Shown here piece after piece: positions 2 through 38,077 of a stretch of DNA of 64,000 nucleotides. Made by a program: the position numbers and the translations under genes. Position 1 is the first letter of the stretch. Every line of letters begins with the position of its first letter. The stretch is from positions 1 to 64,000 of IMG/VR virus record IMGVR_UViG_3300008448_009815. One strand, given 5' to 3'. Origin of the DNA: a virus. The notes below the pieces were generated by a model. It did not search any database. It had not been told where the DNA came from and saw nothing but the letters and a program-made list of their open reading frames with translations.

Positions 2-2359
2 GCACCATATAATGTTGTTGATGGTGGTTATGGGACAACACCAATGCTTGTAACATTAACAAGAGACTCGTCAACACAATATACAATAACAATAACATCA
101 AGAAGTGGTGGTCCAACATATTCAGCACCAATAAATTCTTCATTAGCAATTAATGAATTAAGTTTTTATTGTGGAGCACAAAGTGATGGATCAGGACAAA
201 GAAATTTATATTTTAATAAATTACAAATAACACAAAATGTAAGTTTAAATAAAGTTTCTGTTGATGAATTAAAAATCGCATTAAACGTTGGTGATATATT
301 ATATTCGGCAGGAACTGGAACCGACTCAACTGTAAGAGTAGACAATGGAAATTTTGCAAATGGTAACTGCTCAATTGTTGCTGGAGGAAGTGGAAATATT
401 AGTGATAGTCAATATTCAACAATCGGTGGTGGATGTAATAACACAATAAATAATTTTACAACAAATTCTAACTATTATTCGGTAGTTGGGAATTTAATTG
501 GTGGGGGTAATCGTAATACAATTGATTCTAATACGTTAAATGATGCCGATGTTGGTGGATCAGTAATTGGTGGTGGTTATGTAAATCAATTGATTTCACC
601 TTTTTATGGTTTCAACACGGTTAATGGTGGGGTTTTAAATAGAACATTTTTTGATTATAGTACAATTGGTGGTGGAGCAATCAATGTTAACTTAGATTCG
701 TTTACAACAATCGGTGGTGGAGCATTTAATACAAACTCAAGTTATACATCAACAATCGGTGGTGGTAATAATAATACAATTGGAACTTTATCTTCTTATT
801 ATAATGATCCTATTATTGGTCAAACTATAGGTGGTGGATCTTGTAATACAATGTCATCTTATAGTGCTCAGTATTATAATGGTGGTAGTACAATTAGTGG
901 TGGATATTGTAACACAACAGTTTCTTCATATTATGGAGGGCAAACTATATCAGGAGGGTTTAATAATATAACATCAAGTGATTATGCAACAGTTGGTGGA
1001 GGGGTTAGAAACACATCAAGTGGTTATTATTCAACTGTAAGTGGTGGGATTAACAATACATCAAGTTGTGGTGGTTCATTTATTGGTGGTGGTTGTAACA
1101 ACACATCAAGTTGTAATTATTCTACCGTAAGTGGAGGTTATAGAAATACATCAAGTTGTTGTAATTCAACAATAGGTGGTGGTAGAAGTAACACAGTAAG
1201 TTCTTGTTATTCAACTGTTAGTGGGGGTCGTAACAACGTATCCGGAATTAGCGGAACTATATCAGGAATTTATGATCAAACATATAATGGAGGAACATTT
1301 AGTGGTTATTATGGGTCATATTCACCAACCTCAACATCTTCAGGGTTTGGTAATGGAGGAACATTCTCATTTAATTTTAATACGGGAACATTGTCTAACG
1401 TTTATGTTAACACAATTGGTCAAAGTTATGTTCAAGGAGATACGTTATTATTTGACGGTACTTTATTTGGTGGATCAAGTGGTACTGATGATGTGACAAT
1501 TAAAATTAATGTGACATCAAGTGGTAATAATTCTACCGTAAGTGGAGGTTATTGTAATACATCAATTGGTAGTAGTTCAACAGTAAGTGGTGGTAAAAGA
1601 AACACATCAAGTGGTAGTTATTCAACAATTGGAGGTGGTAATGTTAACACATCAAGTTGTTATTACTCAACCGTTGGTGGTGGTAGAAATAACACGTCAA
1701 GCGATTATTGTTCAACCATTGGTGGTGGTTTTAATAATAAAATTAATCCAGCATCATCCGATAGTGGTACTATATACGCATCAACAATAGGAGGAGGATC
1801 TTGTAATACAATCGGAACATTATCGGCATATTATGATGTATATGGTGCAACAATAGGTGGGGGAACTTGTAATACAGTTGGGACATTATCCTCTTATTGT
1901 GGTGTGTATAGCTCAACAATTGGTGGAGGTTCCTTTAATATAATATCATCCTACAGTGGATACTATGAAATGTATGGTAATACAATAGCTGGTGGTACTT
2001 TTAATACAACGGTATCTTCAGAATACAACGGACAAACAATTGGTGGAGGTCGTGGTAATGTAACAAGGTATAATTATTCAACTGTAAGTGGGGGTAGAAC
2101 TAACACATCAAGTGGTTATTATTCAACAATTGGTGGTGGTATAAATAACACATTAATAAATGGTTGTTCGGCAATACTTGGAGGAATATGTAATACGTCA
2201 CAACACGATTGTTCATTTATTGTTGGTAGTGGTATATGTAGTACTGCCGCAAACACAACACACGTAAATTGTCTACATTTCAGTAACATACCTACATCGT
2301 CAGCAGGACTTGCACCAGGTACTGTATATAGTGATTCGTGTGTATTAAAAATAGTATAA
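2..2359 (+). CDS. Repeat-rich tail fibre/adhesin, 5' end outside window
   Basis: The frame is open from base 2 through the first in-window ATG at 44, so the true start lies upstream. After about 100 residues of ordinary sequence, most of the protein consists of 15-residue repeats of the form STxxGGGxxNTSSxx, broken by a non-repetitive block at about residues 405-490. The last residues (pattern NIPTSSAGLxxGxVYSDSxVLKIV) resemble C-termini common in phage fibres. The repeats suggest a beta-solenoid or trimeric YadA-head-like rod. Each unit carries Asn-Asn-Thr-Ser-Ser, many with Cys, giving regular arrays of possible glycosylation sites. It lies directly upstream of glycosyltransferase genes. 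Virion location and receptor binding are inferred; the repeat structure is seen directly. Confidence 0.75.
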   Translation, partial: APYNVVDGGYGTTPMLVTLTRDSSTQYTITITSRSGGPTYSAPINSSLAINELSFYCGAQSDGSGQRNLYFNKLQITQNVSLNKVSVDELKIALNVGDILYSAGTGTDSTVRVDNGNFANGNCSIVAGGSGNISDSQYSTIGGGCNNTINNFTTNSNYYSVVGNLIGGGNRNTIDSNTLNDADVGGSVIGGGYVNQLISPFYGFNTVNGGVLNRTFFDYSTIGGGAINVNLDSFTTIGGGAFNTNSSYTSTIGGGNNNTIGTLSSYYNDPIIGQTIGGGSCNTMSSYSAQYYNGGSTISGGYCNTTVSSYYGGQTISGGFNNITSSDYATVGGGVRNTSSGYYSTVSGGINNTSSCGGSFIGGGCNNTSSCNYSTVSGGYRNTSSCCNSTIGGGRSNTVSSCYSTVSGGRNNVSGISGTISGIYDQTYNGGTFSGYYGSYSPTSTSSGFGNGGTFSFNFNTGTLSNVYVNTIGQSYVQGDTLLFDGTLFGGSSGTDDVTIKINVTSSGNNSTVSGGYCNTSIGSSSTVSGGKRNTSSGSYSTIGGGNVNTSSCYYSTVGGGRNNTSSDYCSTIGGGFNNKINPASSDSGTIYASTIGGGSCNTIGTLSAYYDVYGATIGGGTCNTVGTLSSYCGVYSSTIGGGSFNIISSYSGYYEMYGNTIAGGTFNTTVSSEYNGQTIGGGRGNVTRYNYSTVSGGRTNTSSGYYSTIGGGINNTLINGCSAILGGICNTSQHDCSFIVGSGICSTAANTTHVNCLHFSNIPTSSAGLAPGTVYSDSCVLKIV
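360..2240 (+). repeat. Degenerate 45-nt coding repeats of the fibre gene
   Basis: Tandem 45-nt units encode STVSGG or STIGGG followed by xxNTSS. The two arrays are about 360-1250 and 1510-2240, separated by the inserted block. Codons vary between copies although the protein pattern is kept, so the array is old or diversified. A few copies (around 1010-1170 and 1510-1700) are close in nucleotide sequence, as expected from recent unequal exchange. Confidence 0.8.
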
Positions 2360-2633: not shown

Positions 2634-2670
2634 TTACAAACATATTATTAAAATTGTAATATGTTTGTAA
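2634..2670 (+). promoter_or_regulatory. 14-bp perfect hairpin hiding the start codon of the GT8 gene
   Basis: TTACAAACATATTA (2634-2647) is perfectly complementary to TAATATGTTTGTAA (2657-2670), with a 9-nt loop. The right arm contains the ATG at 2661. No T-run follows, so it is not an ordinary terminator. In RNA it would bury the start codon of the first gene of the glycan/sulfation operon. The inverted repeat is seen directly; translational control is inferred. Confidence 0.75.
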
Positions 2671-3404
2671 CTGTATGTAATAAAGAATATCTTATTGGTT
2701 TTGAGGTAATGTTAAAATCTCTTGTGGAGAATAACCCAAGAGTTATTGAGGAAGATATCCCATTCACAATTATTAGTAATGATTTAACATCAGATGATTT
2801 AATAGTTGCGAGAAAAATTCATAATAATATTTCATTAAAAACCTATGATTCATCAAAATATTATGAAATTGATGAGTTAAAAAAACAACAGATGTCGTTT
2901 GGTGATTACGCCAAATATGAAATATTTTCTATTGAGGATGTTGATAAAATCATATTTCTTGATTCCGATACTTTAATATTAGGGAACATTGATAGATTAA
3001 TTGACTCTGATTATAATTTTGGTGCTGTTAGAGAATTGTATATTGACCAATACAATACCGGAGTAATAGTCATTTCAAAGAAATATTTAAACCCTAAAAT
3101 CACAAATGATTTAATCAATTTAACAAAAGTTTATGGAATAACTGAACATTCCGATCAGGATATTATAAATCATTACTTTGAAGACGTTATTAAAGATTTC
3201 CCAATTGAATATAATTTTTTAAAAACATACAATAAAAAAGTATTCCAAAACACAGGGTTACCTAAGTACATCAAAATATTACACTACATAGTTAAAAAAC
3301 CTTGGCAACAAAAAGAATTAGTGTCTTTAGAAGAAGGGACTTTATGGACTGAAAGATATTGGTTTGATTATTATTCAAAAATACTTAAACTAAAAAATGA
3401 TTAA
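2661..3404 (+). CDS. GT8-family (glycogenin-like) glycosyltransferase
   Basis: A retaining nucleotide-sugar glycosyltransferase of the GT8 type. The N-terminal strand begins FVTVCNKEYLIGFEVMLKSL. The metal-binding DxD motif is in FLDSDTLI (D101, D103). The second conserved block is YNTGVIVIS near 131-139, HSDQD follows at 163-167, and the C-terminal metal-ligand motif appears as ILHYIVKKPW (about 206-215), a variant of the family HFxGxxKPW. The length of 247 residues is typical of the catalytic core, and there is no membrane anchor. It is the first gene of a compact operon and overlaps the next gene by 8 nt. A hairpin covers its start. The acceptor is unknown; the adjacent fibre or host surface glycan are candidates. 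Confidence 0.85.
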   Translation: MFVTVCNKEYLIGFEVMLKSLVENNPRVIEEDIPFTIISNDLTSDDLIVARKIHNNISLKTYDSSKYYEIDELKKQQMSFGDYAKYEIFSIEDVDKIIFLDSDTLILGNIDRLIDSDYNFGAVRELYIDQYNTGVIVISKKYLNPKITNDLINLTKVYGITEHSDQDIINHYFEDVIKDFPIEYNFLKTYNKKVFQNTGLPKYIKILHYIVKKPWQQKELVSLEEGTLWTERYWFDYYSKILKLKND

Positions 3405-7386: not shown

Positions 7387-7417
7387 CTTTCATTGTATTT
7401 ATAAGATACAATGGAGC
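7387..7417 (+). promoter_or_regulatory. Start-codon hairpin enclosing a late-promoter box
   Basis: CATTGTAT (7391-7398) pairs perfectly with ATACAATG (7406-7413), and the stem can extend outward four more pairs, two of them G-U. The right arm contains the ATG at 7411. The box TATTTATA (7396-7403) overlaps the left arm and loop. A transcript begun from the box would start close to the ATG and lack the left arm. Confidence 0.7.
7396..7403 (+). promoter_or_regulatory. Late-promoter box TATTTATA
   Basis: Exact copy preceded by TTG, ending 7 nt before the start codon of the Thr-Pro-rich fibre gene. Transcripts starting 6-7 nt downstream would be almost leaderless. Confidence 0.6.
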
Positions 7418-7905
7418 AATCAATTACTATACAAAGTATTAATTATGACGGTGAACTTGCTAATATCTTATTTAAACCAGATATTAGCGAAACCGTATAT
7501 AATTTAGGTGATCAGTTTTTACCTTTTGTGTTTAATTCAAACACAATTAACCCTAATTTAGAAGTATTTGGGACATATACTATATTAATTTTATTTAATA
7601 AATGCCCATATTTTTTAAATGTCCCAAGACTTACTCCTACACCGACACCTACAAATACGCCAACTAGAACACCAACACCTACACCAACACCTACGATTAC
7701 ACCTACACCTACGTTCGATCCTTGTAAGGTACCAACACCAACACCAACGGTTACTACAACGCCTACGATTACACCTACAAATACACCAACTCCAAGTGTG
7801 ACTTGTACAAATCCTTGTGGTTGTCCTGAACCAAGTAAAACACCAAAACCAAGTAAAACACCAAAACCGACACCTACTTGTACAAGTCCTTGTGGTTGCC
7901 CATAA
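7411..7905 (+). CDS. Thr-Pro-rich fibre/stalk protein with Cys-rich tail
   Basis: The N-terminal about 70 residues are a folded, hydrophobic-patterned domain. The rest is a low-complexity linker of TP and TPT units (about residues 72-132). It ends with two short cysteine knots of pattern CTxPCGCP separated by PKPSKT repeats. No signal peptide is seen. The same TP linker recurs in the next gene, so the two probably belong to one fibre system, with this one as a stalk or adaptor. Thr-rich linkers are classic O-glycosylation substrates and glycosyltransferase operons flank it on both sides. Virion location is inferred. Confidence 0.65.
7630..7796 (+). repeat. ACACCTACACCA-type repeats encoding Thr-Pro linker
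   Basis: Six-base-period degenerate repeat (ACACCT/ACACCA/ACGCCT) encoding TPTPT runs, interrupted by a FDPCKV segment. A related tract lies at 8181-8232 in the next gene. The two could recombine and swap fibre tips. Confidence 0.8.
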
Positions 7906-7958: not shown

Positions 7959-9896
7959 ATGATACATCAAATTTCAATAACAGGAGTAACAGGAACTCCA
8001 CCATATTCAATATCGGTATGTGATTCAACATACACATATTGTTATTTGGTTACAGGTTCAACAACAATACCACCAACATTTACTTTTGATGTTCCATCAC
8101 CTTTAGATGGAGTTAATAATTTAATTGTAAAAATAACTGATTCTACAGGATGCGAATACTTTGAACCTTATAGTTGTCCTCCTACACCGACACCAACACC
8201 TACTCTAACACCGACACCAACACCTACCCCAACCGATTTGTGTTATTGTTTAATGGCAGTTAATTCATCCATGATGGATGGTTCGTTTGATTATATAGAT
8301 TGTGATGGATTATCACAATTAAATATTCATGTCCCAAGTGGAATAACATATTATACTTGTGGATCTAACCCGACAAACATAATTAATTTATCAATCGGAA
8401 TAGGTGATTTATGTTCTTTATCCAGTTGTAATCCACCTTTACCTTCATTATCGGCAACACCAACTCCTACTCCCACACCTTCGTCATTACCTTTTGCGTT
8501 TATTTCAGTTTGGTCGGCATCAACTACAATTGAACTTCCGTATTCACCAACTGGAACTTATTCAGGAATAATAGATTGGGGTGATGGTAATACATCTGTT
8601 AACTCATATGCAAATAGAACTCATACATATTCGATAACAGGTGATTATACTGTAACAATTACAGGTACAATTGAGGGTTGGGATTTTAATAATTATGCGA
8701 CATCTTATAAAAACAATATAAAAGAAATATTAAGGTGGGGTCCACTAAAAGGAGAATCAGGTTCAAACAATGGCATGTTCTATGGTTGTCAAAATTTAAT
8801 TATAACAGGTGTAACAGATACTATTAATTTAATTGGAATAACAAATTTGAGTAGTATGTTTTTTGGTTGTACTAGTTTAACTACCGTAAATAATATGGAT
8901 AGTTGGGATGTATCATCTGTTAATAATATGTCGGGTATGTTTACATTGACATCTAATTTCAATCAACCAATAGGAAGTTGGGATGTTTCAAATGTTACAA
9001 ATATGGCATCTATGTTCTCGTTATCCACAAACTTTAACCAAAACATCGGAAGTTGGGATGTTTCAAACGTTACCAATATGTTGGCTATGTTTTTAGCCGC
9101 GGCAAATTTCAATCAACCAATAGGAGGATGGGATGTTTCAAATGTTATCAATATGTCAGCTATGTTCGCAGGTTCTCAAAATTTCAATCAACCAGTAGGA
9201 AGTTGGGATGTTTCAAATGTTACCAATATGTCGTCTATGTTTGGTAATGCAACAAACTTCAATCAGACAATTGGGGGTTGGGATGTGTCAAATGTTACCA
9301 ATATGGGTAATATGTTTGGTAATGCAACAAACTTTAACCAAAACATCGGAAGTTGGGATGTTTCAAATGTTACCGATATGAATGGTATGTTTTTATCGGC
9401 AATAAACTTTAACCAAAACATCGGAAGTTGGGATGTTTCAAATGTTACCGTTATGAATGGTATGTTTAATAATGCTACAAGTTTTAACAATGGAGGTTCT
9501 CCAAGTATAAATTTATGGAATGTTTCAGGTGTGACAAATATGTCATTTACTTTTTATACCGCAACAAATTTCAATCAACCAATAGGAGGATGGGACGTAT
9601 CTAATGTAACAAATATGGAAAATATGTTATCATTGGCAACAGTTTTTGATCAACCAATCGGAGGATGGGATGTTTCATCAGTAACTAATATGAGTTTTAT
9701 GTTAAATGGTACGTCATTATCAACACCTAATTATGATTTACTACTCAATGGATGGGCATCATTAGGAGGTTCATTACAACCCTCAGTTAATTTTAATGCC
9801 GGTACTTCTGTATATACGATTGCAACGGCTGGTGTGAGTAGAAATTATTTGACAGGAACCAAGTTATGGAATATAACTGACGGGGGAGGAATTTAA
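7959..9896 (+). CDS. Modular adhesin: SprB-like, TP linker, PKD-like and DUF285 repeats
   Basis: Domains in order: residues 1-72, an SprB-like unit (GVTGTPPYSISVC to VKITDSTGC, as in flavobacterial gliding adhesins); 75-92, a TP linker; 93-165, a Cys-containing domain; 166-175, a second TPTPTP linker; 178-245, a PKD-like domain with IDWGDGN and YSITGDYTVTITGT; and about 270-605, ten or more 25-residue BspA/DUF285 repeats (MxxMFxxAxNFNQxIGxWDVSNVTN). DUF285/BspA repeats mediate binding to proteins or surfaces in several bacterial groups. No secretion signal, consistent with a virion protein. It is probably a receptor-binding fibre. Its own late box precedes it and a glycosyltransferase operon follows. 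Confidence 0.75.
   Translation: MIHQISITGVTGTPPYSISVCDSTYTYCYLVTGSTTIPPTFTFDVPSPLDGVNNLIVKITDSTGCEYFEPYSCPPTPTPTPTLTPTPTPTPTDLCYCLMAVNSSMMDGSFDYIDCDGLSQLNIHVPSGITYYTCGSNPTNIINLSIGIGDLCSLSSCNPPLPSLSATPTPTPTPSSLPFAFISVWSASTTIELPYSPTGTYSGIIDWGDGNTSVNSYANRTHTYSITGDYTVTITGTIEGWDFNNYATSYKNNIKEILRWGPLKGESGSNNGMFYGCQNLIITGVTDTINLIGITNLSSMFFGCTSLTTVNNMDSWDVSSVNNMSGMFTLTSNFNQPIGSWDVSNVTNMASMFSLSTNFNQNIGSWDVSNVTNMLAMFLAAANFNQPIGGWDVSNVINMSAMFAGSQNFNQPVGSWDVSNVTNMSSMFGNATNFNQTIGGWDVSNVTNMGNMFGNATNFNQNIGSWDVSNVTDMNGMFLSAINFNQNIGSWDVSNVTVMNGMFNNATSFNNGGSPSINLWNVSGVTNMSFTFYTATNFNQPIGGWDVSNVTNMENMLSLATVFDQPIGGWDVSSVTNMSFMLNGTSLSTPNYDLLLNGWASLGGSLQPSVNFNAGTSVYTIATAGVSRNYLTGTKLWNITDGGGI
8890..9700 (+). repeat. 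75-nt tandem repeats (DUF285, 25-aa units)
   Basis: At least ten 75-nt units. Several are nearly identical in DNA, for example those beginning near 9338 and 9410, which share an AACATCGGAAGTTGGGATGT core. One copy near 9480-9520 carries a 12-nt insertion (four residues, NNGGSPSI region). Nucleotide identity between copies points to recent duplication or gene conversion. Confidence 0.85.
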
Positions 9897-19164: not shown

Positions 19165-20256
19165 TTATTTCTTCATTCTTAATTCGTATAACTCATTGAC
19201 GAATTCCCAATTAACACAATTCCAAAAGTTTTTAATGTACTGATCCCTCTTGTTTCTGTATCTCAAATAATAAGCATGTTCCCAAACATCAAGTCCAAGA
19301 AGTGGATAACCACCACCCTCAACAACATTCATTAATGGATTGTCTTGATTTGGGGTTGACATAATTTTTAATCTACCTGTTTTAGTTAATACTAACCAAG
19401 CCCACCCTGAACCAAATCTATCTAATGCGGTTTTATTAAATTCTTCTTTAAATTTGTTAAATGAACCGTATTGTTTTTTTATTTTCTCAAAAACAATACC
19501 TTTAGGTGTTTGTTTTGTTGGGGATAACATTTTCCAAAATAATGCATGGTTGAAAGCTCCTCCAGCATTGTTTCTAACTTTAGTATCAAATTTACTAATG
19601 GATTTAACAATGTCCTCAAGTTCCATATCACCTTTTCTACTTGATAAAGCGTCGTTTAATTTTTTTACATATCCTTTGTAGTGTTTGTTATAATGAATAT
19701 CCATTGTCTCAGGATCTACAAATTTTTTAATTGCTGAATATGAATAAGGTAATTTCTCAATACCTATTTTTTTCATTTCAGTTAAAAACTGTTTTTGGAT
19801 GTTTTCTTTTTCTTTAAGGACTATCTGTTCTGATATGATATCTAATTTATTGGATATTGATTTAAACCCCTCAAATATTGTTTTTTCATAATTTGGATAG
19901 TCTTTCTCAAACATTTTAACAATTTGACCCGCAAACGCATTTGCTTCATCTTCATTTTTCCCACCAATGTCCGGACCTTTATCTCTATCTAAAACTCCGT
20001 GTTGATATTCGTGAACCCATTCGTGAGCAAGAGTTCTCATAATATCTCTATTTAATCTATTTTTTGCGAGTATCTTTAATATATGTTTGTTAGTCCTACT
20101 ACCAGTACTCATTTTACCATATCTTTCACCCGTAAAAACTATTTCTATATCATCAACCAACGGCAATTTTTTACTTAAGAATTTTATAAAATCCTCAAAT
20201 AATTTGTAATCTTTTTTTGGGATATCCGATTTAAGATATTTTATTGAAACTTTCAT
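19165..20256 (-). CDS. HExxH metalloprotease-like domain fused to Mn-type superoxide dismutase
   Basis: Numbering from the ATG at 20256 (an upstream in-frame TTG at 20262 is less likely). Residues 1-120 contain HEWVHEYQH (78-86), the zincin HExxH signature, followed by Glu residues in NEDEANAF. A helical linker follows. Residues about 168-363 are a full Fe/Mn superoxide dismutase: ligands H188, H237, D323 and H327 are all present, with the NNAGGAFNHALFW, FGSGWAWL and DVWEHAYYLRY signatures. Gly at the NAGG site and Gln in STPNQDNPL match the manganese type. It would convert superoxide to peroxide and oxygen. No signal peptide. The start codon lies in a hairpin with a late-like box, suggesting late expression and possibly a virion or lysis-time role. 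Confidence 0.88.
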   Translation of the reverse strand: MKVSIKYLKSDIPKKDYKLFEDFIKFLSKKLPLVDDIEIVFTGERYGKMSTGSRTNKHILKILAKNRLNRDIMRTLAHEWVHEYQHGVLDRDKGPDIGGKNEDEANAFAGQIVKMFEKDYPNYEKTIFEGFKSISNKLDIISEQIVLKEKENIQKQFLTEMKKIGIEKLPYSYSAIKKFVDPETMDIHYNKHYKGYVKKLNDALSSRKGDMELEDIVKSISKFDTKVRNNAGGAFNHALFWKMLSPTKQTPKGIVFEKIKKQYGSFNKFKEEFNKTALDRFGSGWAWLVLTKTGRLKIMSTPNQDNPLMNVVEGGGYPLLGLDVWEHAYYLRYRNKRDQYIKNFWNCVNWEFVNELYELRMKK

Positions 20257-20285
20257 TAACAATAAATATCTTCAAATGAAAGTTT
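20247..20285 (-). promoter_or_regulatory. Start-codon hairpin enclosing late-like box TATTTATT (minus strand)
   Basis: On the minus strand AAACTTTCATT (20285-20275) pairs perfectly over 11 bp with AATGAAAGTTT (20257-20247), which contains the ATG of the SOD fusion. The 17-nt loop carries TATTTATT (plus coordinates 20261-20268). The left arm is at the 3' end of the upstream SNF2 gene, so only read-through RNA from that gene would fold. Confidence 0.7.
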
Positions 20286-31042: not shown

Positions 31043-31075
31043 TAATATTTATATAGAAATACAATTTAAATGTTA
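31043..31075 (+). promoter_or_regulatory. Late box within a start-codon hairpin (tape-measure gene)
   Basis: TATTTATA (31046-31053) overlaps the left arm TAATATTTA (31043-31051), which pairs over 9 positions (one G-U) with TAAATGTTA (31067-31075), containing the ATG at 31070. The loop is 15 nt. Confidence 0.55.
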
Positions 31076-32902
31076 GCAACAAACGATTCTGGTGATGTAG
31101 ATAAAGAAGAAACAGGTGCGGGTAGTTACGGGTTTACAGGTATTGATGTTGCCACACAATTATCTACTGCCGCCAAAGATTTATCAGGAATACCTGCTCA
31201 AATAGGTTCGTTAATTAGTACTAATTTAGGTTTAACTGCAATGTTTAGAGCAGCAACTGACTTAGATAAAAAGAGTGCGGATATCGTAAAAACATTAGGG
31301 ACTGGATTCGAAAGAAGTATAGAACTTCAAAGAACTCTCACACTTGCAATCCCACAATTTGTTGGGATGGGTTTGAAGGCGGATGATGCATCTGCTCTTT
31401 ATGAAAACCTAATTAAAAAATTCAATATTAATTTAAAACTAAGTGACAAACAATTAGTTGAGTTGGCGGCGACAAGTAAAGTTACTGGTGTTGCGGCTGA
31501 TGAATTAGCACTTAATTTTAAAGATGTTGGTTTTAGTATTGAATCTGTTGGTGACAATATGTTGGAGGTTGCAAAAATTGCTAATCAAGCGGGGGTTACC
31601 GTCGCTAGTGTTGCGGGTGCGGTAAGTAAAAACCTTGAAAAACTTAATTTGTTTAATTTTGATAATGGTGTTAAAGGACTTGCTAAAATGGCGGCGCAAG
31701 CATCAAGATTAGGTGTTGATATGGAAAAAATATTTGCCAAATCTGAAGACCTATTAAGTCCCGAAAAAGCAATTGATTTCGCAGCATCATTACAAAGATT
31801 AGGAGTCACCTCAAGTGAGTTATTAGATCCGTTAAGAGCAATGGATTTGGCTCAAAATGATCCTGTTGAGTTACAAAATCAAATTGTTAATTTAAGTAAA
31901 GATTTTGTTAGATTTAATGAACAAAATAATCAATTTGAAATTTTACCTGGTGCAAAAAGGAGAATGAGGGAAGTTGCGACTGAATTAGGTATGTCTGCGG
32001 CTGAATTCTCAAAAATGGCAATCAACGCCGCATCATTTGATGAAAAATTAAAAAAGATTAAATTTAGTCCTGAAGTAAATGAAGACGATAGAGAATTGGT
32101 GGCGACAATGGCTCAGTTTAGTAAAAGTGGCGTTGCTCAGGTTAAAGTTAAAACATTTGATGAAACAACAGGTAAATTAACAGGTGACGAAGAATTAGTT
32201 GATGTTAGTAAATTAACTGCGGAACAAATAGAATCACTTAAGGCGGAACAAGCATTACAAGGTAAAACCATGGAAGAAATTGCGGTTGATCAATTAAGTG
32301 AAATGTCAAAAACAAATGCAATACTTAATGAGAGATTGGCAGCGTATCAATATGGTATGGCACAAGGAGCTGCTCAACCTATTTATAGCGGTGCATTATC
32401 TAAAACAAGAGATCTTGTAAAAGAACTCCCAACCGACCCTATGGTTTATATTAAAACCATAGAAGATGTTGAAAAAAAAGTGGGAGAAATATTAAAAGAT
32501 TTAGGTGTTGATTTTGGAGTTGTAATTGAAGAATTTGGGAAGGCTAAAGATGTTGTATATAATTGGTTTAGTGATGCTGCAACAACTATTAAAGATATTT
32601 ATAATTCTGTTATTGGTACAACAACTTCCTCCGCAACATCAACTGCAACACCATCGGCATCAAATGTGGTATCATCAACTGCAACAACAACAGTAGGTGG
32701 AGGAGGTACTGAAACCGCCTCAACCAATACACAACCAACAAATATGAACATAACCCACACATTTAATTTTTCAAATATGCCAAGTTATGTAACATCAACT
32801 GAGGTTGAACGAATATTAAAAGAATATACTCAAAATTCTCAAAATGCTCTTGCAATGGTAATGGCGGCAGGAAAAATAAATGCCGGATTAACAACAACAT
32901 AA
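31070..32902 (+). CDS. Tail tape-measure-like protein (gp29 position)
   Basis: 610 residues, almost wholly helical, rich in Ala/Leu/Lys with long amphipathic stretches (about 40-450) such as GIPAQIGSLISTNLGLTAMF and VASVAGAVSKNLEKL. A Thr/Ser/Ala low-complexity segment follows (about 510-560), then a C-terminal segment with THTFNFSNMPSYVTSTEVERI. T4 gp29, the tail-length ruler, is 590 residues. Position right after the chaperone-like gene is the usual tape-measure location. Assignment rests on composition, length and synteny, not on a motif. Confidence 0.6.
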   Translation: MLATNDSGDVDKEETGAGSYGFTGIDVATQLSTAAKDLSGIPAQIGSLISTNLGLTAMFRAATDLDKKSADIVKTLGTGFERSIELQRTLTLAIPQFVGMGLKADDASALYENLIKKFNINLKLSDKQLVELAATSKVTGVAADELALNFKDVGFSIESVGDNMLEVAKIANQAGVTVASVAGAVSKNLEKLNLFNFDNGVKGLAKMAAQASRLGVDMEKIFAKSEDLLSPEKAIDFAASLQRLGVTSSELLDPLRAMDLAQNDPVELQNQIVNLSKDFVRFNEQNNQFEILPGAKRRMREVATELGMSAAEFSKMAINAASFDEKLKKIKFSPEVNEDDRELVATMAQFSKSGVAQVKVKTFDETTGKLTGDEELVDVSKLTAEQIESLKAEQALQGKTMEEIAVDQLSEMSKTNAILNERLAAYQYGMAQGAAQPIYSGALSKTRDLVKELPTDPMVYIKTIEDVEKKVGEILKDLGVDFGVVIEEFGKAKDVVYNWFSDAATTIKDIYNSVIGTTTSSATSTATPSASNVVSSTATTTVGGGGTETASTNTQPTNMNITHTFNFSNMPSYVTSTEVERILKEYTQNSQNALAMVMAAGKINAGLTTT

Positions 32903-32904
32903 AA

Positions 32905-32942
32905 ACATATTTTATGTATTTATAGGAAAAGATAAAATATGT
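32905..32942 (+). promoter_or_regulatory. 11-bp start-codon hairpin with late box in its loop
   Basis: ACATATTTTAT (32905-32915) pairs perfectly with ATAAAATATGT (32932-32942), which contains the ATG at 32939. The 16-nt loop carries TATTTATA (32917-32924). Initiation 6-7 nt after the box falls at about 32931, just before the right arm, so late RNA cannot form the stem. Confidence 0.75.
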
Positions 32943-35900
32943 CAGAGAGTGTATTATCATTTGCATCGTCATCTACATTTAGAAATACTTTAATTGCTAG
33001 AAATTTAGCACCTTATCAAGTACAAGGTGTGTACACACCTCCTGCAGGTAATGTAACATATGAAGTATCACCACTTAGTAACAGTAATGTAATTGATTCA
33101 CCTGATACATTAATATCTACAAATCAAGGTGCTAATCAACTTTATTCATTAAATGAATACGGACCTGAAGGTGGTTTCATTGGTAAATATACTATACCTG
33201 GAGCTCCATATCCCGTTGAATCAAATAAAGGACCTTATGACCCAGGAGACACAATTTTAGATTTGGTTAATGAATTCTATATTGATGCGGCATATATACA
33301 AAATAAATACGGACCTGAGAGTGGGTTTAAAGATTTATATGTTATTACAGATGTAATCACATCAAATAAGATGTACCAACCTTATTGGGATCCATCAATA
33401 TTTGTACCATCATTTTATAGTCCGTATGAGATATTAACAAGTACCAACCCAACAGGATCTGATGGTTCTTTATCACAAGATTCGTATTTAGCTAAGATTG
33501 GTGCGGCACAACTTAAAGGATATTTTGAAGATAGAATTGCATCAGAGTTAGAACAGTTAACAATAGGTTCTATTAACCTTGATACATTATCTGATCCATT
33601 TAGTGCGAGTTTATTAGCATCAGGACAACAACCATTCTTTATTAAGAATTGGAAAATTACTGTACCTGAAAATCCTTTATTAGCTGCGGTATCGTTTGCA
33701 AATAGATTATCAGGAACTTATTTTCCTGTATCATTTATTCCTGGTGATTATTTTGATGAAAACAATCCTGAAGGTAATGTATCGGGAGCATTAAATACCG
33801 CAAACAATTTAACGGCAGGTGCATTAGGTGGAATTTTAAATAAATTTAGAAATCCTTCTGAATTATTTTTGGCAAATACAGGTAATGGACAACAATCAGT
33901 TTTATTTGGTAACTTAAATTATAACTTATATAGACCTGTATATCAAAAAAATCTAATACAAGGAGCGTCACAAGCAATTAATAACCTATTCAACGGGGAT
34001 AACGGTGGAGGAGGTTATTATATCGGTAGTGAAAATGCGGAACCTGGATTAATAACAAACCCATCTAATGAGGTTGCAACCGATAGATTTGGTAAACAAC
34101 AAGGAACACTTGTTTATGGACCTGACGAGTTAGGTAAATTGTATGAAGGTAATGATGGTAAACTTAATTTTGGATTAGGTGGTAAATCACATCACGATGG
34201 TGATGGTATAGATGGTAGATTCGTTTGGACATCACCAAAGTATAGACCAAATGCGGGATTCAAAGTAGGTAGAGGTGGAGAAACCTTCCAACAGGACGCT
34301 GAATTTAATATTGTTGAGGCTCAATACAGTCAAGATCAATCAATTGATGTTGAATTTAAGGGGGGTTCTATATTAGATAATACGCAAAGAATTATTAATG
34401 CTGCCGATAATGTTCAAGGGGCAAAACGACTTAAACACGTCGGTAACGCAATAAATCAAGTGTCAAAAGTTTTTAATGATGGTTATAAAGAATTAACAAA
34501 AGGTTCTCAAGTAATTGCATATTACGACTCAAGTACAGGTAGTAATGTAATTGGTGAAAGTGGATTTGAAGTTGGTAGAGAATATTGTAGAATCTTCCAA
34601 AAAGATACTCCATATTACACTTACGCTGATTTACAAAAAACTGATGGTATAACTACTTCAGGTAGAAGATTTAATAATTCAGTATTTGATAATACTTACA
34701 ATTTAAATATTGCACCTTTAAGAAACCCTGGATCAACTAACATTGTTGATAATAAAGTGAAAAAATATATGTTCTCACTTGAAAATTTAGCTTGGAGAAC
34801 ATCAAGTGAACCTGGGTTTAGATATGATGATTTACCTGTTTGTGAGAAAGGACCGAATGGTGGTAGAATTATGTGGTTTCCACCATATAATATAACATTC
34901 AGTGAAGACAGTAAGGCAGGTTGGAACCCTACATCATTTTTAGGTAGACCTGAACCAATATATACATATAAAGATAGTACAAGAACGGGTTCATTAAGTT
35001 GGACAATAATTGTGGATCATCCATCAGTTATGAATACAATTATTAGAGAACAACTTAAAACTAGAACACCACAAGAAATTAATTCAATAATGGATTCATT
35101 TTTTGCGGGTTGTGTTAAATATGACATATATGATTTGGCAATAAAGTTTAATAACATACCAACATCTGATTTATATACATACCAACAACTTTTAAATGAA
35201 CCAAGAAAAACTCAAGAAGAACTTCAAAATATATTAACAAAAATCCCAGTCGACAATTCAATACCTGGGGGTAATAGTACAGGTACTCAAGGAGATGCTG
35301 AGGTTAGTCAAACAACTAACACCACAAATGATGTTAAACCCGGACCTACAGTTGAAGAGGTTGTTACTTCTTCAGAACTTAATGATAATTTTTCAGAATA
35401 TGCGTTTTATTTTGAAAACGATTCACCATATTTTAATAATCCAATAAAAAATCCTTCAGATCCTGCGGAATGGAAAGTTGCGGGTGCGGCATCAAGAGAT
35501 TTCCCTAATTTAGGTAATAATGCAAATTGGGATTATGATAATTATTACGATTTTTATATAGGTTTAAGAAATCAAAAATATGTAACTAATGCACCTGCAA
35601 AATGTTTTGCTCAAGGACAAACTGATCCTTTCTTAAAGGAAGGAGTACAAAACTTTTTTGATAATGTTGTTGTGGACAATTTTAGTGTAATTAAAAATGA
35701 GTTATTACCAAAAATTAAAGAATTTATTGTTGACAAAAAAGGACAAATAACAATTGAATTAGTTGGTTCAGCATCACCAATACAAGCTAGTTTACAATAT
35801 AATGAATATCTTTCTGATAGAAGAATTGATTCTGTTGTAAAATGGTTTAAAAAACAAAATGTTGCTGGAGAAAATTTCCAAAAGTTTTTTGATGAAGGAA

Positions 35901-38077
35901 AATTAATTGTTAAATCAGCATCTTTAGGTGAAGTTGCTCAAGTTTCACCAAAAAGTAAAGATGGTACAAATTTCTCAATAAACTGTAATGTAAACATACT
36001 TGATGGAGCTACTTTAGCAACTGCTAAGACTAATGATTATGGTGGTGAATGGTATTCAGTACCCGCAATGGCTTGTAGAAAAGTTAGAATTGCGTCAATA
36101 ATTGCAACATATGTACAAGAAGTTAAACCTGAAGATCCAATTCAAGAACCAATAATAGATGTTGTTGTGATACCTAATCAGTCAGGAACAACAGGAACAA
36201 CAACTATTGAAATACCTCCACTTAAAATTATAGAACAACCAGATCCGATTCAAAAGGTTAAAGACGGTATTTCCAAAAAAATATTAAGACATCTATTTTC
36301 TGAATGTGATTATTTTGATGTGTTAAAAGAAAGTGATCCTATGGTATTTGAAAGTATTAAAGATAGGATAAAATACTTTACACCGGCATTTCACTCAATA
36401 ACACCTGAAGGATTAAATGCAAGACTTACATTCTTACAACAATGTATGAGACCGGGACAAACAATTCCTGTTATTGGACCTGATGGTAAACCAAAATATA
36501 ATGATGCTCAAAATACTGCGTTTGGAGCACCACCTGTATTGGTATTAAGAATTGGTGATTTTTATCACACAAAAATAATTCCTAATACATTAGGTATACA
36601 ATATGATCCTTTGGTTTTTGATATAAATCCTGAAGGAATTGGGGTACAACCAATGTTAGCCAAAATTTCATTAGGATTTGACTTTATTGGTGGACATGGA
36701 TTAGCTGGACCAGTTAAACAATTACAGAACGCATTATCATTCAATTACTATGCGAATACTGAAATATATGATGAAAGATCAGTTGCAACAGAAAGTACAG
36801 AAGAAAGAGATAAACAAATGGTTGCTAAAATAGTTAAAGGTGCGGGAACATCAACACCTACGGTTGGATCTAATACGGTTGCTAACCAACAATCACAAAA
36901 AGGTGGAGGAACTATTGGAACTATATTGTCAACAAACTACGAAAATAATAATGAAGTTGAAGTTGGTGACATGGACTATTCAGGATTAATTAAAGAATTA
37001 TCTGAAGGGACTAAAAATTATTTTACAACAATAACAAATCAACTTAAAACAATGACAAGTACAACTAATATGGGTATTGTCGGATTAGCAAGTAGTGAAA
37101 GAAAATTTAATAATGGTGAGTTAAATGAATATGATGTACCATTACCTGATGTTCCATTGTATGGTAGATCATTAGAAATTGAAAAAAATGTAAGTAAATT
37201 AATTAAAGAAACATTATCAGATGTTAAAAATGATAAGGATCCAATTTCATATTATGTTAATAAGGATTCTAACCAATATAGTGCGGTAAATTCTGAGTTA
37301 AGAGAATTAAGAGCAAAATTAGAAGAAGAGGTAACCAAAATGGAAACTGAAATAAATAATATTGTTATTGAACCTGCTAACACAATGACTTCATATCAAG
37401 AAAACTATAATTATACTTTAAGAAAAATGGATATGATTTGTGGTAAAATTGATGGTATCAAATTAGGTACCGGAGATTACAAAGTTTACACATTAAGTGG
37501 TGACAACATTGATAATATTATTAAAGTATATACCACTAATACAAATCCTGTTTCCGTAGGATTTAAATTAACGGATTATAATAATAAAATATTAGATGTT
37601 GATTCTAATAGTATCTTAAAAAAGATTAACTATCAGGATAATAATTTTGATCCAATAACTAAAGTTTTCTCTGGTTTTGGTGATGATACGGCAACTAGAA
37701 GGTTCTATATGACTATGTCCCCAATATTTTTGGATGATAATAAATTTAACGCTTTTGTCACTAATTTAACTTCTGGGCCTAAAATATCTAAAAATCAAAA
37801 ATTAATTGATGGTATTAAAAAAATATCAAATGAATTTAAAGGGAAATGTAAAGAAGAATATGATGCCGAATTAAAATTCTTTGATACTTTAATGAATGGT
37901 AGTGATTATCAAACATATGAAAAATATGAGATAACTGAATTTGATTCCAAAGTACAATACACAACGGATAATGTTGGTAACAACCTACAAAAGAAGAATA
38001 GATTAAAAGATTTGTATTTAGATGTAAATGTAAAAACAAGTAATAAAACTTATAATGGAAAAGTAACTTTCACTTAA
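32939..38077 (+). CDS. Giant tail-tube-initiator/baseplate protein with OmpA-like domain
   Basis: 1712 residues. About 640-697 (RIMWFPPYNITF, FLGRPEPIYTYKDSTRTGSLSWTIIVDHP) and 1205-1260 (GDFYHTKIIPNTLGIQYDPL, INPEGIGVQPMLAKISLGF, IGGHGLAGPVKQLQNALSF) look like the two halves of gp48/gp54-type tube-initiator domains. Between them (about 915-1022) lies an OmpA-like fold: ITIELVGSASPIQAS, YNEYLSDRRIDSVVKWF and a closing strand INCNVNIL. OmpA domains bind peptidoglycan. A long helical region is near 1400-1480. Position after the tape measure and before a gp53-like gene supports baseplate/tube origin. It is several times larger than T4 equivalents. Confidence 0.6.
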   Translation: MSESVLSFASSSTFRNTLIARNLAPYQVQGVYTPPAGNVTYEVSPLSNSNVIDSPDTLISTNQGANQLYSLNEYGPEGGFIGKYTIPGAPYPVESNKGPYDPGDTILDLVNEFYIDAAYIQNKYGPESGFKDLYVITDVITSNKMYQPYWDPSIFVPSFYSPYEILTSTNPTGSDGSLSQDSYLAKIGAAQLKGYFEDRIASELEQLTIGSINLDTLSDPFSASLLASGQQPFFIKNWKITVPENPLLAAVSFANRLSGTYFPVSFIPGDYFDENNPEGNVSGALNTANNLTAGALGGILNKFRNPSELFLANTGNGQQSVLFGNLNYNLYRPVYQKNLIQGASQAINNLFNGDNGGGGYYIGSENAEPGLITNPSNEVATDRFGKQQGTLVYGPDELGKLYEGNDGKLNFGLGGKSHHDGDGIDGRFVWTSPKYRPNAGFKVGRGGETFQQDAEFNIVEAQYSQDQSIDVEFKGGSILDNTQRIINAADNVQGAKRLKHVGNAINQVSKVFNDGYKELTKGSQVIAYYDSSTGSNVIGESGFEVGREYCRIFQKDTPYYTYADLQKTDGITTSGRRFNNSVFDNTYNLNIAPLRNPGSTNIVDNKVKKYMFSLENLAWRTSSEPGFRYDDLPVCEKGPNGGRIMWFPPYNITFSEDSKAGWNPTSFLGRPEPIYTYKDSTRTGSLSWTIIVDHPSVMNTIIREQLKTRTPQEINSIMDSFFAGCVKYDIYDLAIKFNNIPTSDLYTYQQLLNEPRKTQEELQNILTKIPVDNSIPGGNSTGTQGDAEVSQTTNTTNDVKPGPTVEEVVTSSELNDNFSEYAFYFENDSPYFNNPIKNPSDPAEWKVAGAASRDFPNLGNNANWDYDNYYDFYIGLRNQKYVTNAPAKCFAQGQTDPFLKEGVQNFFDNVVVDNFSVIKNELLPKIKEFIVDKKGQITIELVGSASPIQASLQYNEYLSDRRIDSVVKWFKKQNVAGENFQKFFDEGKLIVKSASLGEVAQVSPKSKDGTNFSINCNVNILDGATLATAKTNDYGGEWYSVPAMACRKVRIASIIATYVQEVKPEDPIQEPIIDVVVIPNQSGTTGTTTIEIPPLKIIEQPDPIQKVKDGISKKILRHLFSECDYFDVLKESDPMVFESIKDRIKYFTPAFHSITPEGLNARLTFLQQCMRPGQTIPVIGPDGKPKYNDAQNTAFGAPPVLVLRIGDFYHTKIIPNTLGIQYDPLVFDINPEGIGVQPMLAKISLGFDFIGGHGLAGPVKQLQNALSFNYYANTEIYDERSVATESTEERDKQMVAKIVKGAGTSTPTVGSNTVANQQSQKGGGTIGTILSTNYENNNEVEVGDMDYSGLIKELSEGTKNYFTTITNQLKTMTSTTNMGIVGLASSERKFNNGELNEYDVPLPDVPLYGRSLEIEKNVSKLIKETLSDVKNDKDPISYYVNKDSNQYSAVNSELRELRAKLEEEVTKMETEINNIVIEPANTMTSYQENYNYTLRKMDMICGKIDGIKLGTGDYKVYTLSGDNIDNIIKVYTTNTNPVSVGFKLTDYNNKILDVDSNSILKKINYQDNNFDPITKVFSGFGDDTATRRFYMTMSPIFLDDNKFNAFVTNLTSGPKISKNQKLIDGIKKISNEFKGKCKEEYDAELKFFDTLMNGSDYQTYEKYEITEFDSKVQYTTDNVGNNLQKKNRLKDLYLDVNVKTSNKTYNGKVTFT

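Follow-up and report, generated by a model that had tools for sequence, protein, structure and literature searches.

Does the hairpin that buries the start codon of a very long gene in an uncultured phage, with a probable late promoter in its loop, act as a switch of the type described for T4 gene e? In such a switch, read-through RNA would be folded and silent, and late RNA, deprived of the 5' arm, would be translated. The site lies in the window, the whole stretch of 64,000 nucleotides analysed here, which is part of a 118,616-base IMG/VR phage record. Its features are the following.

31070..32902, plus strand: upstream gene of 610 aa, with a box of its own at 31046-31053; two nucleotides separate the end of its stop codon from the left arm
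32905..32915, plus strand: left (5') hairpin arm ACATATTTTAT, seen in sequence and fold, broken in most relatives
32917..32924, plus strand: box TATTTATA, probable late promoter, the top enriched upstream 8-mer
32932..32942, plus strand: right (3') hairpin arm ATAAAATATGT, with the ATG within it, seen in sequence and fold
32939..38077, plus strand: gene of 1712 aa, an open reading frame that is tail-related by position only, with no PHROG or Pfam family

The hairpin and its genomic setting

The two arms form 11 Watson-Crick pairs around a loop of 16 nt, and the start codon of the 1712-aa gene (32939-32941) lies within the 3' arm. The perfect stem over the ATG and the box in the loop are thus both placed as the original prediction had described them. 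When the local 71 nt were dinucleotide-shuffled 3000 times, a perfect stem of at least 11 bp arose in five, a figure that has to be read against the approximately 103 gene starts of the window that had the same opportunity. Folding of the 101-nt region as such is unexceptional (z -1.21, with 24 of 200 shuffles equally stable). Five perfect stems of at least 11 bp (loop 3-30) are present in the window, and six shuffles of the whole window yielded 4, 1, 2, 0, 0, and 1; four of the five carry a start codon in their 3' arm. Across the whole 118.6-kb record, 24 perfect stems of at least 10 bp (loop 3-35) were found; the 3' arm holds a start in five of them, the 5' arm in none. When the 103 genes were compared with shuffles of their upstream sequences, masking of the start reached p<=0.05 in 11 cases (about five expected), including the gene at 32939 (p 0.05), and p>=0.95 in two. 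Gene starts inside stems are somewhat over-represented, and a conservation test is needed for each single case.

Neither the 610-aa nor the 1712-aa protein has a PHROG match or a match past the Pfam cut-off, so that their earlier designation as tape-measure and tail proteins rests on position and size; the neighbouring genes are those of the tail tube, sheath, and hub. Comparisons with named phage records by distant DNA or protein gave no match. The description of the genome as devoid of Shine-Dalgarno sites holds, with Shine-Dalgarno-like words at 3 of 104 starts and 2.6 in shuffles. The host is probably a member of the Bacteroidota. The minus-strand gene 19165-20256 codes for a C-terminal Fe/Mn superoxide dismutase (Pfam) and an N-terminal part with a HEWVH motif, which we take to be of the HExxH type; its superoxide-dismutase part matched 52 genome loci, 44 of which carry titles that we assign to Bacteroidota. 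The ribosomes of these bacteria are described as making no use of Shine-Dalgarno sites (available text of PMC9976891).

The box as a probable late promoter

The octamer TATTTATA is the most enriched 8-mer upstream of genes in the window, where it precedes 19 of 103 genes (1.46 expected; no more than 6 in any of 200 shuffles). The T4 box TATAAATA, which is its reverse complement, is found upstream of five of the 103 only. Genes for the sheath (24946), the tube (29550), and a baseplate wedge protein (55478) are preceded by it, as are the 610-aa gene (31070), the 1712-aa gene (32939), and a homing-endonuclease-like gene (51277). Ahead of the 1712-aa gene it is present in all 31 relatives, exactly in 30 and with one mismatch in L011. 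For gene 19165, 315 relatives were found in viral contigs, and the box, as TATTTA, stands before the gene in all 80 loci that were kept. The record also codes for a candidate partner of the box.

G000:94816-95613: sigma factor gene (PHROG E 4.5e-53; Pfam regions 1.2, 2, and 4)

The proposal that TATTTATA is the late promoter of this phage is well supported by its enrichment, orientation, and conservation, by the structural genes behind it, and by the sigma gene; from these we infer promoter function, late timing, and start points. Late RNA of the 1712-aa gene would then be made from TATTTATA as a single -10-type element located 14 nt before the ATG. A literature search returned no paper joining TATTTATA, late promoter, and phage, and no bacteriophage title was among the matches listed for TATTTATA with promoter. 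The conserved octamer offers a handle on the late genes of many uncultured phages.

The gap between box and ATG is just 3-7 nt at window positions 7396-7411 and 20254-20268 (minus strand, with a one-mismatch box at 20261-20268), as well as at L052:16911 and at the L054 genes 1680-2165 (minus), 8063-9079 (minus), and 9387. With T4-like spacing, the late mRNAs of such genes would presumably be leaderless or nearly so.

Predicted effect of the hairpin on the start codon

Fold prediction indicates that the hairpin sequesters the AUG at 32939 in read-through RNA, where it is unpaired with a probability of 0.005-0.009, compared with 0.26-0.34 in late RNA. The predicted cost of opening it is 4.2-4.4 kcal/mol in read-through RNA and 1.0-1.6 kcal/mol in late RNA, and the AU-rich hairpin would thus make the AUG approximately 3 kcal/mol harder to open. 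As the AUG is still just 26-34% unpaired in late RNA, its release would be partial. Shuffling the sequence before the box gave a p value of 0.025 for the 1712-aa gene.

Masking of the start by pre-box sequence is not a general property of the genes that carry the box, and this candidate was rejected: over 28 such genes two measures revealed no excess (Fisher 0.37 and 0.47), and 75 control genes without the box gave a Fisher value of 0.61. The gene 19165 family (44 distinct sequences of 80) did show masking in excess (Fisher 0.018; second measure printed as 0.000), which is not counted as independent evidence, since the low AUG-accessibility values come mostly from the near-identical loci L107 to L128.

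Conservation of the stem among relatives

Thirty-one relatives of the site were searched for the stem, and the alignment comprised 19 sequences, namely the window and 18 loci; the 13 loci left out are near copies of the window or repeats of start regions already aligned. Across 7,461 nt, neither L002, part of a 304-kb record, nor L003 differs from the window, and L004 has 99.98% and 99.76% identity in two pieces; as near copies, these three are uninformative on selection. All 11 pairs can form in two of the 19 sequences, the window and L012, the latter with two G-U pairs and with a minimum-energy fold that does not use the 11 pairs. In L005 and L006 (91% and 90% identity over 487 residues), 8 of the 11 pairs are left, with a longest run of 5. 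The stem was accordingly rejected as a conserved element. Its absence from related genomes had been named beforehand as one of two observations that would refute a switch, and this is largely what was found, the full stem being lost in most of them.

Some complementarity between the pre-box sequence and the start region is nonetheless shared, as the duplex between them is stronger than in shuffles (p<=0.05) in 5 of the 19 distinct sequences: the window (0.007), L012 (0.013), L006 (0.027), L029 (0.027), and L005 (0.030). Paired cells make up 65% of the alignment, compared with 56% in shuffles (none of 500 reached the observed value) and 31-52% in slides, an excess that is partly expected because the structure was taken from one row of the alignment. 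When the pre-box segment was shuffled, AUG accessibility reached p<=0.05 in 1 of 20 distinct starts, that of L002, the identical copy of the window. By opening cost, shuffles at or above the observed value numbered 4 of 100 for the window, 4 of 100 for L029, and 1-3 of 100 for L015-L019, a clade whose start region is closed via pairs other than those of the window stem.

What the hairpin might do

The reading that we favour, with some confidence short of strong, is that the site combines a working late promoter with a hairpin that is either incidental or a recent, modest damper specific to one lineage. We infer no strong regulatory effect of the hairpin. The site also calls for caution: in AT-rich DNA, a perfect 11-bp stem over a start codon can be an event of a single lineage.

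A working gene e-type switch in the lineage of the window appears possible but unlikely; we would give it roughly one chance in a few. The geometry argues for it: TATTTATA is conserved and sits between the arms, and RNA started from it may lack the left arm. The predicted difference in opening cost and the pre-box shuffles also argue for it, as do the duplex values of near relatives such as L005 and L006 and the start region of clade L015-L019, closed by other pairs. Against it, the full stem is broken in relatives that are 90-91% identical and folded otherwise in L012, and the box genes show no trend; in addition, late RNA would be only partly open, and the upstream stop codon lies two nucleotides ahead of the left arm. 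Loss of the stem alone is not decisive, since some T4-type phages have a gene e without the structure: it is kept in close relatives of T4, whereas Aeh1, 44RR, 25, 31, and FelixO1 are listed as having the gene without it (available text of PMC3014915).

The proximity of the stop codon suggests another reading, translational coupling, which we consider improbable. Ribosomes that end the 610-aa gene at 32902 would cover the left arm, which starts at 32905, and expose the AUG, so that the hairpin would block only RNA whose upstream gene is untranslated. Modelling the 9-13 nt after the stop as covered indeed lowers the predicted opening cost of the AUG to about 1.5 kcal/mol, yet the wider start region still costs 9.2-9.4 with the post-stop nucleotides covered, and the distance from stop to ATG varies from 36 to 66 nt among the relatives in which the stop was located. 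The same geometry bears on the statement that read-through RNA would be silent, which would be true at best while the upstream gene is untranslated, as much of the left arm would lie under any ribosome that ends that gene.

It is very improbable that the repeat acts at the DNA level or as a different kind of RNA element, such as an operator, a terminator, or a processing site: it does enclose the promoter box, but the inverted repeat is not conserved, no terminator-like site occurs in 32600-33200, and an Rfam search of 32600-33300 that admitted E values up to 1 found nothing.

Other start codons in stems

Further stems of the window that cover a start codon include the following.

2634..2670, plus strand: 14-bp perfect stem, without a box, over the start codon of the glycosyltransferase gene 2661-3404
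7388..7416, plus strand: hairpin of 13 pairs (G-U included) whose 3' arm carries the ATG of gene 7411-7905, with a box at 7396-7403
20247..20285, minus strand: 11-bp stem whose 3' arm carries the ATG of gene 19165-20256, with the one-mismatch box TATTTATT in its loop

The stem at 20247-20285 is not kept in relatives. The one at 2634-2670, before a gene for a family 8 glycosyltransferase, was rejected as a conserved element, a shorter related repeat being present in L066 and L077 and none in most others. A stem at the start of the primase gene (L053:1488) was likewise rejected, as relatives do not keep it. Upstream of that gene (L053:1440-1488), many relatives share AACTTGTG(A/T)AGTTGAT followed downstream by a word resembling TATATTAT; these words are possibly an early or middle promoter.

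The hairpin at gene 7411 is a more promising gene e-type candidate than that at 32905, judging from fold predictions. Its AUG is predicted to cost 9.1 kcal/mol to open in read-through RNA and 0.4 kcal/mol in late RNA, a result equalled by none of 150 shuffles. Eight loci, chosen for an upstream box from 71 found, were assessed. None of 150 shuffles equalled the value for L240, a copy of the window locus, or for L246, a clade that retains the arrangement (70% identity, residues 1-113; opening cost 5.95 vs. 0.06); in L251 the costs are 5.98 and 0.28 (4 of 150 shuffles), by way of other pairs. Masking is not significant in L249, L257, L259, L260, and L266, and many other relatives of gene 7411 have no box at the gene start.

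A conserved hairpin outside the window

Beyond the window, the same record holds a hairpin that has been kept.

L053:18135-18164 (G000:C1:102135-102164): hairpin on the start codon of the 154-aa gene, seen in fold and alignment
L053:18156-18620: the 154-aa gene, outside the window; together with the hairpin, G000:C1:102135-102620

Eighty loci were kept of 141 found, with 48 distinct start regions, of which 44 distinct rows were aligned. The start codon is paired within the hairpin in all 48 start regions, and in the alignment the 10 pairs are formed in 440 of 440 cells, with compensatory changes in 13 cells altered on both sides, at two pairs. No shuffle of 500 matched the paired cells, the double changes, or the score; 48 of 500 matched the two double-change pairs. 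Codon 2 is GAG in all 46 cases of Glu, compared with 129 of 540 Glu codons further on, and is GAT in two loci that have a matching change in the arm. In read-through RNA the AUG is predicted to be unpaired with a mean probability of 0.0006, beyond 100 shuffles in 47 of the 48 start regions.

The hairpin has, in addition, the look of an intrinsic terminator: its G+C-bearing stem and the T run after it come just past a stop codon. It has 13 pairs, 4 of them G-C, and the tail TTTTTTAATT, and it is located 27 nt downstream of the stop codon of the preceding gene; the stem is followed by T7 in 47 of 48 start regions and by T5 in one. A scan of 501 bases detected one terminator-like site, compared with 0.0 in shuffles. 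In all 25 distinct loci that include the start of the preceding gene and at least 40 upstream bases, this gene carries a late box at positions -20 to -23 (of the other 23, one has 21 bases, two yielded no open reading frame, and 20 run off the locus). Directly before the 5' arm ends a TTTACA-N16-TATAAT-like pair, with a spacing of 16 in 46 of 48. This pair is one of six promoter-like sites in a plain scan, where 4.0 are expected, so that the case for it rests on its conservation.

The hairpin may be a terminator, a lock on the AUG, or both. If both, it would end transcripts of the late-box gene and clamp the AUG in those that read through, and RNA from the TTTACA/TATAAT pair, beginning within the 5' arm, would escape the lock. 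The hairpin is possibly an inverted gene-e switch, in which an early 154-aa gene would be kept out of late transcripts. With the A of CCAT as the assumed start, the predicted opening cost falls from 15.3 to 3.0 kcal/mol, and the AUG is still just 33% unpaired on average; in the phage of the window, 6.5 kcal/mol would remain if the RNA began one base earlier. Rfam gave a single match to the region, far below cut-off (E 0.21).

The 154-aa protein is modelled with confidence as helical (pLDDT 89), and one uncultured-phage homologue was found. No Pfam or PHROG match was found; a PDB sequence search yielded only three antibody-fragment matches (E 0.01-0.16), a PDB fold search nothing at E<=0.001, and two patterns tried against genome contigs no match.

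Taken together, these sites raise the idea, tentative and somewhat short of an even chance, that a promoter whose start lies inside an AUG-clamping hairpin is a recurring device of phages without Shine-Dalgarno sites, of which the 154-aa gene would be the strongest case, gene 7411 an example that runs in the usual direction, and the 32905 site a young and weak one. The 154-aa and 7411 hairpins would make it testable, free of Shine-Dalgarno effects, whether the visibility of an AUG is set by where transcription begins.

Comparison with known systems

The phage of the window resembles the bS21-encoding freshwater Bacteroidetes phages described in PMC9723584, in whose available main text the word "promoter" is absent. 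Its superoxide-dismutase matches are mainly in Bacteroidota records, and bS21 was found in 4 of 8 records examined, including the 304-kb record that shares the identical 7,461 nt, where it passes the family cut-off by a small margin and its neighbours are in frame. In contrast to those phages, the window's own 118-kb record has no bS21. A phage without Shine-Dalgarno sites and with bS21-encoding relatives fits this group (PMC9723584), as a likeness and not as a clade assignment.

As in T4-type late promoters, which depend on gp55/gp33 (PMC3014915), a single AT octamer is found a short way ahead of structural genes in a phage with a sigma gene. The T4 late box is TATAAATA, whereas the oriented box of the window phage is its reverse complement TATTTATA, and the sigma factor has regions 1.2, 2, and 4, by which no likeness to gp55 is implied.

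Masking of an AUG by a hairpin is already known from T4, where the Shine-Dalgarno site and/or the AUG of genes e, soc, 49, and I-TevI are sequestered in start-region hairpins (PMC3014915). The contrast first drawn, between masking of a Shine-Dalgarno site in T4 and of the AUG here, is therefore not upheld by the available text of that source. For gene e, 100-fold less lysozyme is reported from long transcripts (PMC3014915). Unlike gene e, the 32905 site has no Shine-Dalgarno sequence and its stem is lost in close relatives; its effect, as given by fold prediction only, is a difference of about 3 kcal/mol with late RNA partly open. What it has in common with gene e is the predicted arrangement itself, a hairpin on the start region of the long RNA and a promoter so placed that its own RNA would lose the 5' strand.
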